Origin: Candidatus Brocadiia bacterium | Lineage (GTDB): Bacteria; Planctomycetota; PUPC01 | Assembly (NCBI GenBank): GCA_030605345.1 | Contig: JAUWIN010000014.1 | Coordinates: 1 to 38,654 of the forward strand | Length of the DNA: 38,654 nucleotides | Direction of reading: 5' to 3' | Shown: piece by piece, positions 3,068-6,862 of the stretch | Numbering within the stretch: the first letter of the stretch is position 1 | How the letters are laid out: every line of letters starts with the position of its first letter | Translations under genes and position numbers: made by a program | Notes under the pieces: model-generated | Told to the model about the DNA's origin: nothing | The model's input: the letters and a program-made list of their open reading frames with translations, nothing else | Database searches by the model: none

Positions 3068-3967
3068 ATGACCCTGCTCGACTGGCTGGACAATTTTCTC
3101 GAATACCTCGAAAGCGAGCGGAACTTCTCTGAGCACACTGTCCGCGCCTACAGCACAGACATCGTGGAGTTCGTTCGCTTCGGCGAGAAGGGGGCCGCGC
3201 TCCAGCCGGATGGCGTTGACCACCTGATGTTGCGCGGCTACCTGGCGCACCTGCGCAACTCCGGCCGGGCGCGCTCGACCATCGCCCGCAAACTCAGCTC
3301 CGTCCGTGCGTTCTTCAGATATCTCGTCCGTGAAGAGGTGGTGGAGGACAACCCTGCCGCTGACATGCGCTCCCCGCGAAAGGAGCAGCGCCTGCCCGGC
3401 GTGATGGACGAAAAACAGGTCCAAACGCTCATCGAACAGCCCGACATTTCGACCTTCTTGGGCCTGCGCGACCACCTCATACTCGAGGTTCTCTACAGCA
3501 CGGGGATGCGTGCGAGTGAACTGATCGGTGCGAACGTAGATGACCTCGACCTGATTGGCGAGGTCATCCGAGTCCGCGGCAAGCGGCGGAAGGAGCGGTT
3601 GGCGCACCTCGGCACATACGCGGTCGCCGCAATCGAGGATTACTTAGAGGCGCGGCGGCTGCATCCGCGTGCACCCTTCTTCGACAAGCGGGCACTTCTG
3701 CTCAACCGCTTCGGCAAACGTCTGACTGACCGCAGCCTGCGCCGGACAGTCCACAAATACTTCGTGAGAACGGGGCTGAAACTCAACGTCACCCCTCACA
3801 CCCTGCGGCATTCATTTGCCACCCATCTGCTCGACAGGGGCGCAGACCTCCGCAGCGTGCAAGAACTCCTCGGCCACGAGAGCCTCCAGACCACGCAGGT
3901 CTATACCCACGTCTCGGCCGAACGCCTCAGGAAAACCTACGACAAAGCCCACCCGCGGGCGAAGTGA
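3068..3967 (+). CDS. xerC: Tyrosine recombinase XerC-type
   Basis: Site-specific recombinase of 299 aa, the normal length for XerC/XerD, which resolve chromosome dimers at dif. The N-terminal SAM-like core-binding domain covers about 1-90 (FLEYLESERNFSEHTVRAY). The catalytic set is complete: R148 in GMRASELIG, K172 in RVRGKRRKER, H244 and R247 in HTLRHSFATHLL, H270 in LLGHESLQTTQVYTH and nucleophile Y279. The start at ATG 3068 gives the usual XerC N-terminus; the frame is open further upstream but that part overlaps the flavoprotein gene and is not XerC-like. Its last codons (YDKAHPRAK and stop) lie inside a sequence that recurs twice downstream at about 1-kb intervals, flanking two inserted genes. 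It may be the housekeeping XerC, or a recombinase that also moves those cassettes. Confidence 0.92.
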   Translation: MTLLDWLDNFLEYLESERNFSEHTVRAYSTDIVEFVRFGEKGAALQPDGVDHLMLRGYLAHLRNSGRARSTIARKLSSVRAFFRYLVREEVVEDNPAADMRSPRKEQRLPGVMDEKQVQTLIEQPDISTFLGLRDHLILEVLYSTGMRASELIGANVDDLDLIGEVIRVRGKRRKERLAHLGTYAVAAIEDYLEARRLHPRAPFFDKRALLLNRFGKRLTDRSLRRTVHKYFVRTGLKLNVTPHTLRHSFATHLLDRGADLRSVQELLGHESLQTTQVYTHVSAERLRKTYDKAHPRAK

Positions 3968-3980
3968 GCCGCGCAAGCCG
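3941..3980 (+). repeat. Repeat copy 1: 3' end of xerC (possible recombination site)
   Basis: This segment spans codons DKAHPRAK and the TGA of xerC plus 13 bp. Aligned without gaps to 5046-5085 it matches at 33 of 40 positions, including runs ACCCGCGGGC and GAGCCGCGCAA. Aligned over 34 bp to 6016-6049 it matches at 24 positions. It lacks the TTTTGATTCA left arm of copies 2 and 3. It fits an original target site at the 3' end of the recombinase gene. Confidence 0.7.
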
Positions 3981-3983
3981 ACC

Positions 3984-4955
3984 TCATTGCCGTCGAGCGA
4001 TAACCACCAAGGTGTCCCCCATACCCAGGTCAAACAATGCGTGTTTGACAATGTCCTTCCCGGACTGAATCACGCGCCTCATTCCGCCCGGTGGCCGCTT
4101 CTGTATAGCGGTCGTCGCTGGCAGAACTGGCGCACCGCCGCTCGACGGCTTCCGACGAATCAGTTGTTCAATCCCCATGCTGCAAGTGGAGATGGCTTCT
4201 ACTTGGAACTGATACTTGCACAATAACTGAACGAGAGTCGCTCTTGAAAAATAGGACAGATGAATCGGAAATGAACGAAAACGTTCATCGAAGTTCGCGT
4301 AGCGAGTTAGGAAGCGCCGGCACAAAATCGCCCGCAGTGATTTTGAATTCGGAACTTCAATAAAAAGCCGCCCGTTCCGAGCTAGAAGTCGCTTTAGCAA
4401 AACAAACAACTGGCCGAAGTCCGAGACATGTTCAACCACGTGAATCAAAGTGATCACGTCAAAGCTATTCTCCTGCAAGTCATCAACACGATTCGTGACT
4501 ATCAAGTCTTGTTTCCTGCAAGCTTCCAACGCCTCCGTGCTCACGTCAAAGCCTGTGGCATCCCAACCGGACCTAGCCGCAGATTTCAGGAAGAATCCGC
4601 CGCCGCAGCCCCAATCGAGTAATTTTCTTCCGCGACAGAAATCCACGTGCTTGGCGAGAACCGAAAGAACGAACTCAGCGCTCTTCTGCTGCACCAATCC
4701 ACATTGTATGTGCTGGTGAGGACTATACTTGGCCCCTGAGTAGAACACATTGAGCAGCGCCTGATTTGGTCTCGGATTGACAAAAACGAAAGAACAAGTG
4801 CGGCATTGGCAAAGGCCAAGCTGCGCCCTGTAGGAGCCGAACACCTCCTCTCCAATCCAGTGACCAGGAACACAGCGCCCTTTCAGCTTGTTGCTGCCAC
4901 ACAACGGACACTGCGACAAAGTCCCTACCGAAGGAATATCAGATTCTGGAGTCAC
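3984..4955 (-). CDS. SAM-dependent class I methyltransferase with N-terminal Cys-rich segment (cassette 1)
   Basis: About 323 aa from GTG 4955. The N-terminal zinc-ribbon-like segment has Cys at 16, 19, 49, 51 and 54 (CPLCG, CQCRTC), followed by FVFVNPRP and a Y-rich linker. The Rossmann core starts with LLDWGCGGGFFLKSA (motif I, about 112-126), then ATGFDVS, FDVITLIHVVEHV and GRLFIEVPN, as in sugar or small-molecule methyltransferases of surface glycan loci. The GTG start is chosen for a GGAG Shine-Dalgarno 8 nt upstream and a TATAAT at 4989-4994. ATG 5009 is an alternative without ribosome site. The stop falls 10 bp past the xerC-end repeat, pointing back at xerC. The DNA is visibly AT-richer than its neighbours (4201-4260 is 24/60 GC), suggesting recent acquisition. 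The substrate is unknown. Confidence 0.8.
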   Translation of the reverse strand: MTPESDIPSVGTLSQCPLCGSNKLKGRCVPGHWIGEEVFGSYRAQLGLCQCRTCSFVFVNPRPNQALLNVFYSGAKYSPHQHIQCGLVQQKSAEFVLSVLAKHVDFCRGRKLLDWGCGGGFFLKSAARSGWDATGFDVSTEALEACRKQDLIVTNRVDDLQENSFDVITLIHVVEHVSDFGQLFVLLKRLLARNGRLFIEVPNSKSLRAILCRRFLTRYANFDERFRSFPIHLSYFSRATLVQLLCKYQFQVEAISTCSMGIEQLIRRKPSSGGAPVLPATTAIQKRPPGGMRRVIQSGKDIVKHALFDLGMGDTLVVIARRQ

Positions 4956-4988
4956 GCCCTTCTCTCCAAGGCTTTTCAATCGGGGAAC

Positions 4989-4994
4989 ATTATA
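4989..4994 (-). promoter_or_regulatory. Candidate -10 box for the methyltransferase
   Basis: A perfect TATAAT on the minus strand at 4994-4989. No convincing -35 sits 16-18 bp upstream. It lies inside the coding sequence if ATG 5009 were used, but gives a leader of about 27 nt to the GTG at 4955, which has a good Shine-Dalgarno. Confidence 0.35.
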
Positions 4995-5028
4995 CCCTTT
5001 TTTGGTCATTTTTCGGCTGGCGGCTGCG

Positions 5029-5079
5029 TTTTGATTCACAGCGCGGACAAAGGTGACCCGCGGGCCAGGCGAGCCGCGC
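5029..5079 (+). repeat. Repeat copy 2: 51-bp direct repeat related to the xerC 3' end
   Basis: Begins TTTTGATTCA and ends GAGCCGCGC. It is 41/51 identical, gap-free, to 5999-6049, and its right 34 bp is 28/34 identical to the xerC end (3941-3974). The central CCCGCGGG (5057-5064) is a perfect palindrome. GCGCGG (5041-5046) can pair with CCGCGC (5074-5079). Weaker similarity to copy 3 continues upstream to about 5012. It sits between cassette 1 and cassette 2. Confidence 0.75.
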
Positions 5080-5198
5080 AACCCGGACCACCCCAGCATC
5101 CGCGGCGGCGGATGGAGCCGTAAAGTGTCGAGGGACCGCCACCGCAAGCCCGCGACATCACTCATCACCTGTGACAAGATGTGAGTTGAGGCAACAGG

Positions 5199-5227
5199 TT
5201 GCCGTTTCCATTCTGGCGCGGTATCAT
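5199..5227 (+). promoter_or_regulatory. Sigma70-like promoter for the ankyrin gene
   Basis: TTGCCG (5199-5204), 17-bp spacer, TATCAT (5222-5227). The predicted start near 5234 gives a leader of about 63 nt to ATG 5297. It lies inside the cassette, so the insert carries its own promoter. Confidence 0.5.
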
Positions 5228-5296
5228 AACGTTACGTCTGCGCCGTCGCGAGATTATCCCCAGCCCAATTTGACAAACGGCAGGAAACAAGCAGAC

Positions 5297-5887
5297 ATGA
5301 AGCTGTTTGCTAGACTTTTCGGCGGCCCAGTGCTGCGGAACGCTATCCAGTCGGGAGACGTGAAGGCATTCCTCGAGGTGGTGCTAGCCACTCCAGAGCT
5401 GATGACAAAGAGACACAAACGTGGAGGCACGCTTCTCCACTGGGCTGCGGCATATGGTCAGCGGGAAATTGCCACCTTCTTGCTGCACAACGGAGCTGAT
5501 TTGAACGCAAAAGATGATGGAGGTTTGTCACCGCTACACCTCGCGGCGACTGCCGAGGTCGCACGGATATTGGTCGAGGCAGGAGCCGACGTCAACGCGA
5601 CTGACGGAAAGGGTAACAGCCCCCTTGGGGTTGCGGCTGAGTACAACCGTGCGGATGTTGCGCTGATACTCCTCGATTCTGGTGCCGAAGTGGACGCACA
5701 CAACTTTACCGGAGCAACACCACTTATCTATTGTGCAATTTACGGTCATGGACAAACAGCGGAAGTCCTTCTTGACGCAGGAGCCGACCCCAAGGCTAAA
5801 ACGCTGCAAGGAATGACTGCAGGCCAGGTGGCCGAAGCAAGACGCGACGACCGCTTGGTGGCGTTGCTCACACGGAAAAGGCAATGA
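5297..5887 (+). CDS. Ankyrin repeat protein (cassette 2)
   Basis: A 196-aa protein built almost wholly of ankyrin repeats, a fold used for protein-protein binding. About six 30-33-residue units can be seen at 12-40, 43-72, 75-102, 106-135, 138-167 and 171-193, with the usual TPLH-like and GADVN-type positions (GGTLLHWAAAYG, LLHNGADLNAKD, LVEAGADVNATD, LLDSGAEVDAHN, LLDAGADPKAKT). There is no signal peptide or membrane segment, so it is probably cytoplasmic. ATG 5297 is chosen because it is the first ATG after the promoter and a weak AGGA lies upstream; the frame is open back to 5171 but that part is not ankyrin-like. The gene is flanked by direct repeats at 5029-5079 and 5999-6049. Its partner is unknown. 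Confidence 0.85.
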   Translation: MKLFARLFGGPVLRNAIQSGDVKAFLEVVLATPELMTKRHKRGGTLLHWAAAYGQREIATFLLHNGADLNAKDDGGLSPLHLAATAEVARILVEAGADVNATDGKGNSPLGVAAEYNRADVALILLDSGAEVDAHNFTGATPLIYCAIYGHGQTAEVLLDAGADPKAKTLQGMTAGQVAEARRDDRLVALLTRKRQ

Positions 5888-5998
5888 GTAAAGAATATTA
5901 GTAACTGGACGCGAATTGGCATGGGAGATATGAAGCTCCCCTCCCACAAGACATCCGTAGGCCTCCGCTACTTGGGGCACTTTCTGGGCGCGGCAACC

Positions 5999-6049
5999 TT
6001 TTGATTCAAAGCACGGGCAAACGTGAGCCGCGGGACAAGTGAACCACGC
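5999..6049 (+). repeat. Repeat copy 3: 51-bp direct repeat ending at the SDR stop codon
   Basis: 41/51 identical to 5029-5079 with exactly 970 bp between equivalent positions. In the xerC frame it reads GKREPRDK then TGA (6040-6042), against DKAHPRAK then TGA in xerC, so the stop codon is kept in register. The repeat ends one base before the stop (6050-6052) of the convergent SDR gene, as expected if the original xerC-SDR junction lay here before insertion. Confidence 0.75.
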
Positions 6050-6817
6050 TCAAGAAGCTGTATAGCCGCCGTCGATGATGAGGTTGCTGCCGGTGACGTA
6101 ACTGGAGGCGCCGGACGCCAGGAAGACCACGGCGGGGCCAAGTTCTTCCGGTCGCCCCGCGCGGCCCATCGGGATGCGGTCCATCCACACGCCGCCGACC
6201 TTCGGGTCGTCGAAGTGCGGCCGGGCCATCGGGGTGTCCATATAACCGGGGCTGATGGAGTTGACTCGTATGCCGTGGCGGGCCCACTCGACCGCCAGCG
6301 ATTTGGTCAGCTGGATGACGCCGGCCTTTGTGGCGTTGTAAGACGCCTGGCTCTGGGGCACGTTAGCAACCAGGCCGGACATTGAGGCGACGTTGACGAT
6401 GGAGCCGCCACCGGCCTTGATCATCACCTTGCCCACGGCCTGGCAGCAGTAGAAGAGCCCGGTGAGGTTAACGTCCAGGACCTTTTGCCACTCCTCCGAT
6501 GGGACGTTTTCGGCTTCGCCCCAGATGGTAATTCCGGCGTTGTTGACCAGGACGTCGATGTGCCCGAAGGCATCGAGCGAGGCGTCCACCGCGCTCTGCA
6601 CGCTGGACCTGTCCCGGACGTCGGTTTCGAGAGCGAGGGCTTGCCGCCCAATTTTTCTGATTTCGGCCGCCGCGTCCGGGCCCGTTTCGGGGTTGAGTTC
6701 GGCGACGACGATGTCGGCACCGGCGTTTGCGAGTGCCCGGGCGAACTCACGCCCGAGGCCCTGCCCCGCTCCGGTCACGACGGCCACTTTGCCAGAAAGG
6801 TCGAACGGTTCGGTCAT
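6050..6817 (-). CDS. Short-chain dehydrogenase/reductase (SDR), FabG/gluconate dehydrogenase-like
   Basis: Classical SDR of 255 aa. The Rossmann motif TGAGQGLG is near the N-terminus (KVAVVTGAGQGLGREFA), then NNAG (VLVNNAGITIWG) and the catalytic Ser in SIVNVASMSG. The YxxxK motif is SYNATKAG, and SPGYMDTPM is followed by the C-terminal SSYVTGSNLIIDGGYTA. It would catalyse NAD(P)-dependent oxidation or reduction of a hydroxyl/keto group, probably on a sugar, polyol or acyl substrate; specificity is not readable. ATG 6817 follows GGAG by 5 nt; a GTG one codon upstream is less likely. It lies 45 bp after the lipoprotein gene on the same strand, so the two may be co-transcribed. Its stop codon abuts repeat copy 3. 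Confidence 0.85.
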   Translation of the reverse strand: MTEPFDLSGKVAVVTGAGQGLGREFARALANAGADIVVAELNPETGPDAAAEIRKIGRQALALETDVRDRSSVQSAVDASLDAFGHIDVLVNNAGITIWGEAENVPSEEWQKVLDVNLTGLFYCCQAVGKVMIKAGGGSIVNVASMSGLVANVPQSQASYNATKAGVIQLTKSLAVEWARHGIRVNSISPGYMDTPMARPHFDDPKVGGVWMDRIPMGRAGRPEELGPAVVFLASGASSYVTGSNLIIDGGYTAS

Positions 6818-6862
6818 CACGGCTCCGAGCGTAATGAGCCTCCGGCCTCCGGTGATGGATAT

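Follow-up and report, generated by a model that had tools for sequence, protein, structure and literature searches.

Probable traces of two successive single-gene insertions behind xerC in a planctomycete genome

The 3' end of trmE is the attachment site of the element SGI1 (PMC8409611). Elements of this kind leave the target gene intact, place direct repeats of its 3' end around foreign DNA and can insert in tandem. Integron cassettes (PMC8618304) are single-gene inserts that form a tandem array beside the gene of a tyrosine recombinase, with one repeat per insert and an asymmetry between arm and core of the recombination site. In the pdif/dif modules of Acinetobacter, small gene modules lie between recombination sites that resemble dif, and the host Xer proteins are the presumed enzymes (PMC6449649). 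The suicidal integrases of archaea have their attachment site inside the recombinase gene itself, which is split upon integration (PMC8371274). Here we describe a locus that shares features with each of these systems. A search of the open-access literature turned up no report in which the xerC 3' end serves as attachment site.

The window, i.e. the whole stretch of 38,654 nucleotides that we analysed, comes from a planctomycete assembly (2.28 Mb, 141 contigs, 92% complete), in which it is contig C68. It carries a xerC gene whose product, judged by its sequence, is an ordinary housekeeping XerC. Two sediment assemblies from its family are the nearest genomes available for comparison, and their XerC proteins are 69-70% identical to this one. 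The locus runs from xerC through a methyltransferase insert and an ankyrin insert to an SDR gene, with three repeat copies between them:

3068..3967, plus strand: xerC, chromosomal tyrosine recombinase (TIGR02224, 339.9 bits; cut-off 335.15)
3941..3983, plus strand: copy 1, the xerC 3' end and ~16 bp beyond the stop codon, without the left arm (40 bp aligned with copy 2, 83% identical)
3984..4955, minus strand: gene of insert 1, class I SAM methyltransferase with a probable GTG start (PF13489, E 7e-21)
5011..5089, plus strand: copy 2, with left arm (5011-5045), core (5046-5079) and a right side resembling copy 1 (69 bp, 75% to copy 3)
5199..5227, plus strand: promoter-like site in insert 2, TTGCCG-17-TATCAT (from a consensus scan alone; one hit, with 0.7 predicted by chance)
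5297..5887, plus strand: gene of insert 2, ankyrin-repeat protein of 196 aa (PF12796, E 1.3e-35, for the longer reading frame 5171-5887)
5981..6049, plus strand: copy 3, left arm and core, adjoining the SDR gene (repeat comparison and shuffles)
6050..6820, minus strand: SDR-family oxidoreductase, bounding the array on the right (PF13561, E 1e-72)

The xerC gene is whole and not interrupted. Each of the two inserts is ~1 kb long and holds one gene, so that three sites enclose two genes; the methyltransferase stop codon (3984) directly adjoins copy 1, and copy 2 lies between the divergently transcribed methyltransferase and ankyrin genes. The inserts are foreign-looking: their G+C content is 0.516 (insert 1) and 0.563 (insert 2), lower than in xerC (0.62) and in the SDR gene (0.65). 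Their DNA matched no plasmid, and the methyltransferase protein gave one weak match (22%) among phages.

Copy 1 consists of the last eight codons of xerC and its stop codon (DKAHPRAK*) followed by ~16 bp. The initial annotation had matched copies 2 and 3 at 41 of 51 positions, starting at 5029 and 5999, and we recovered this figure exact to the base. The weak similarity that it had noticed ~18 bp further upstream belongs to the same repeat, which extends to 52 matches over 69 bp (75%; 5011-5079 and 5981-6049). In dinucleotide shuffles the pair scored 35 against a maximum of 15 (0/500). The xerC copy (3941-3980) resembles copy 2 by 83% over 40 bp and, just as the initial annotation had stated, joins the repeat only at GACAAAG (3941), with no similarity further left; the xerC end compared with 3991-6100 scored 26, with a shuffle maximum of 16 (0/300). 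Between the xerC copy and copy 3 the similarity is 24/40, too weak to stand alone, or 71% over 34 bp, and its score of 14 exceeded the shuffle maximum of 13 marginally (0/1000). With copy 3 so diverged from the xerC end, the attachment site would be either old or loose.

A stretch of ~34 bp including CCGCGGG is common to all three copies. This core resembles the last codons of xerC (GACAAAG...CCGCGGG...GTGAGCC.CGC). To the left of it copies 2 and 3 agree (TTTTGATTCA.AGC.CGG.CAAA.GTGA), and to the right of it copies 1 and 2 agree (GAGCCGCGCAA.CCG), a distribution that fits tandem elements with common ends. Copy 3 has the xerC-like AAGTGA on its right side and ends at the SDR stop codon (6050). 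The left arm is not xerC sequence and is the same in both inserts, which bears out the earlier proposal that the left part is carried by the inserts while the right part is target-like. On direct inspection, the positions at which copies 2 and 3 differ have no third-position bias in the xerC frame, so that the copies are not conserved coding sequence. An assembly artefact is an unlikely source of the repeats, since the copies have diverged. Whole-genome searches revealed no further copy at a meaningful score, a search for copy 2 in 384 planctomycete genomes gave only short G+C-rich matches that we judged to be chance, and the arm had no match among viral contigs. Each insert is closed by a worn copy of the xerC end, a pattern that would be expected to remain if site-specific insertion had taken place there repeatedly.

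The arrangement of arm and core had been likened to the attI/attC asymmetry of integrons. The fixed boundary between arm and core at GACAAAG stands, but the analogy with integrons is not supported. Although tandem single-gene units with one site each are present, in an array of two, the recombinase is XerC and not IntI: it scored 140.5 bits against the integron integrase model TIGR02249 (cut-off 265) and passed the cut-off of TIGR02224. Sites of the attC type carry R boxes with the consensus GTTRRRY / RYYYAAC. None of the three copies contains such a box on either strand. Folding of single strands, which the initial annotation had proposed as a check for attC-like hairpins, gave no hairpin beyond shuffles (DNA folding z of -0.77 to 0.85, both strands, all copies), and an inverted-repeat core was not significant (p 0.18 for the window and 0.49 for the second genome described below). 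Lacking IntI, R boxes, a folding signal, more than two units and a recurrent platform, the locus gives no support to an integron reading.

A dif module was rejected as well. The sites of pdif/dif modules resemble dif, whereas copies 1-3 do not; a search allowing up to 3 mismatches to the 28-bp XerC/XerD site found no dif-like sequence anywhere in the assembly, these copies included. From the suicidal integrases the locus differs in that xerC is whole. As with elements of the SGI1 kind, the inserts of the window and of the second case lie between direct repeats of a gene end, with the gene itself intact. What differs here is that the inserts measure ~1 kb or less, hold one gene and encode no integrase or other recombinase, and that the target is itself the recombinase gene xerC.

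To search for similar loci, we scanned the DNA behind xerC for repeats of its 3' end, covering 266 distinct xerC ends, 248 of them with at least 1.2 kb of downstream sequence. A copy together with an insert occurred at only two of ~250 xerC loci, one being that of the window, and this is thus not a general system. The other lies in genome G030, which does not belong to the same class as the window genome (a class of nine genomes). On contig C203 (L119, 2094-2795), xerC is followed by a 645-bp insert with a single gene, encoding an AbiEii-like nucleotidyltransferase of 210 aa, and then by 58 bp that repeat the end of xerC (51/58 identical, 7 mismatches). By its sequence, this is an independent similar case in another planctomycete. 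The copy reaches further into xerC and has no distinct outer arm, which counts against site-specific insertion. The initial annotation had proposed to align many instances from related genomes; the ~250 xerC loci gave this one further case.

As a control we took 1670 gene ends from the same loci. Several other matches with a score of 26 or more appeared, so that the enrichment at xerC is suggestive only. Those control matches that we examined were mostly tandem paralogs, tandem repeats and hairpin repeats, with the exception of the second match at L190 and of L240. No copy of the xerC end was seen to bound a larger island; with flanks of at most ~9 kb, large islands would be missed. Behind the xerC gene of L201 (G059) there is a dispersed repeat of hairpin type, GGGGGTCAGAC...GTCTGACTCCCC, which occurs twice (894-960 and 2681-2750), on either side of a GGDEF-like gene; it is unrelated to the xerC end and was rejected. 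At L276 and L279 (G378 and G096), xerC is followed by tandem paralogs of a propeller-like repeat protein with a repeat common to their 3' ends.

Both genomes from the family of the window genome have a gene within ~80 bp behind xerC that we labelled archease-like by inspection, and neither has the repeat or an insert. As an empty-site comparison this shows the inserts and repeats to be absent, but with a different gene 3' of xerC; no true empty site was found among close relatives.

Only two tyrosine recombinases in the assembly exceed the Pfam integrase cut-off, namely XerC and XerD (C35). A third match is a degraded C-terminal piece near a tRNA-like sequence (L323, 1501-1671; G000:C48), a relic indicating that integrative elements have visited this genome.

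We think it rather probable that the locus arose by two tandem single-gene insertions into the xerC 3' end, through recombination in the shared core. Two small elements, each with one gene and no recombinase, would have entered successively. Each would have carried a site composed of the left arm and a core mimicking the last xerC codons, and a recombinase would have joined this site to the xerC end within the ~34-bp core. Because the junction would fall within the core, xerC would have stayed intact. Copy 1 would then be an attL-like junction, copy 2 the element-element junction between the inserts, and copy 3 an attR-like junction that may be the displaced old xerC end beside the SDR gene. 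We infer site-specific recombination, the order of events and a crossover near CCGCGGG from the arrangement of the copies. Several observations count against site-specific insertion: its rarity, the lack of an empty site in a close relative, the lack of an inverted-repeat core, the lack of any other copy in the genome or of a match to the arm in viral contigs, and the low similarity of copy 3 to xerC. The enzyme could have been an integrase that worked in trans or has since disappeared, or else XerC itself, perhaps with XerD; an integrase supplied in trans and then lost is the more likely, while XerC, given that it and XerD alone pass the integrase cut-off, could conceivably have acted on the end of its own gene.

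Within this reading, the inserts could well be remnants of integrative elements with a site at the xerC 3' end, their genes being cargo and their integrase deleted or provided in trans, although we would stop somewhat short of calling this probable. The 3' ends of conserved genes commonly serve as attachment sites, as trmE does for SGI1 (PMC8409611), and the degraded integrase points the same way; yet all three inserts, in two genomes, are single-gene and free of an integrase, and no larger island bounded by the xerC end came to light within the available flanks. That XerC would use the end of its own gene as an integron-like platform, with xerC attI-like and the cassettes attC-like, appears improbable. 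The position of xerC next to the inserts, their single-gene content and the finding that XerC and XerD are the only tyrosine recombinases over the Pfam cut-off in the assembly agree with it. It is at odds with an enzyme that is not IntI, with sites that have neither attC boxes nor a hairpin, with an array of only two, with its absence from nearly all xerC loci and with an assembly that offers no dif-like match for comparison.

Without any dedicated recombinase, circular or linear DNA carrying a scrap of the xerC 3' end could have been captured by a homologous or short-homology route, which leaves the same direct repeats. The plain 58-bp repeat of G030 without an outer arm fits such capture equally well, and so does the rarity of the phenomenon. 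However, the two inserts of the window carry the same outer arm, which is foreign to xerC and has no reason to arrive twice under plain homologous capture; we regard this origin as unlikely. Very improbable is that the repeats are a terminator or another regulatory repeat, resembling xerC by chance or through constraint on gene ends. Weak terminator-like stems do overlap copy 1 on the minus strand, but copy 2 lies between divergent genes and hence is no terminator, the stem is missing from copy 3, the genome has no further copies and the similarity is far above that of shuffles.

Our findings suggest that at the repeat locus single genes were probably inserted in tandem at the xerC end, leaving a trace that is small, rare and probably old. 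As it stands there are two rare cases, which are more likely traces of site-specific insertion. It is a long shot that in some planctomycetes the housekeeping XerC inserts incoming circles, each with a single gene, at the 3' end of xerC by recombination, as a minimal platform for cassette capture with an origin separate from that of integrons. Should recombination at the xerC end have brought in the inserts, the locus would be a compact natural test of single-gene capture by a housekeeping Xer recombinase, a step relevant to the origin of integrons.
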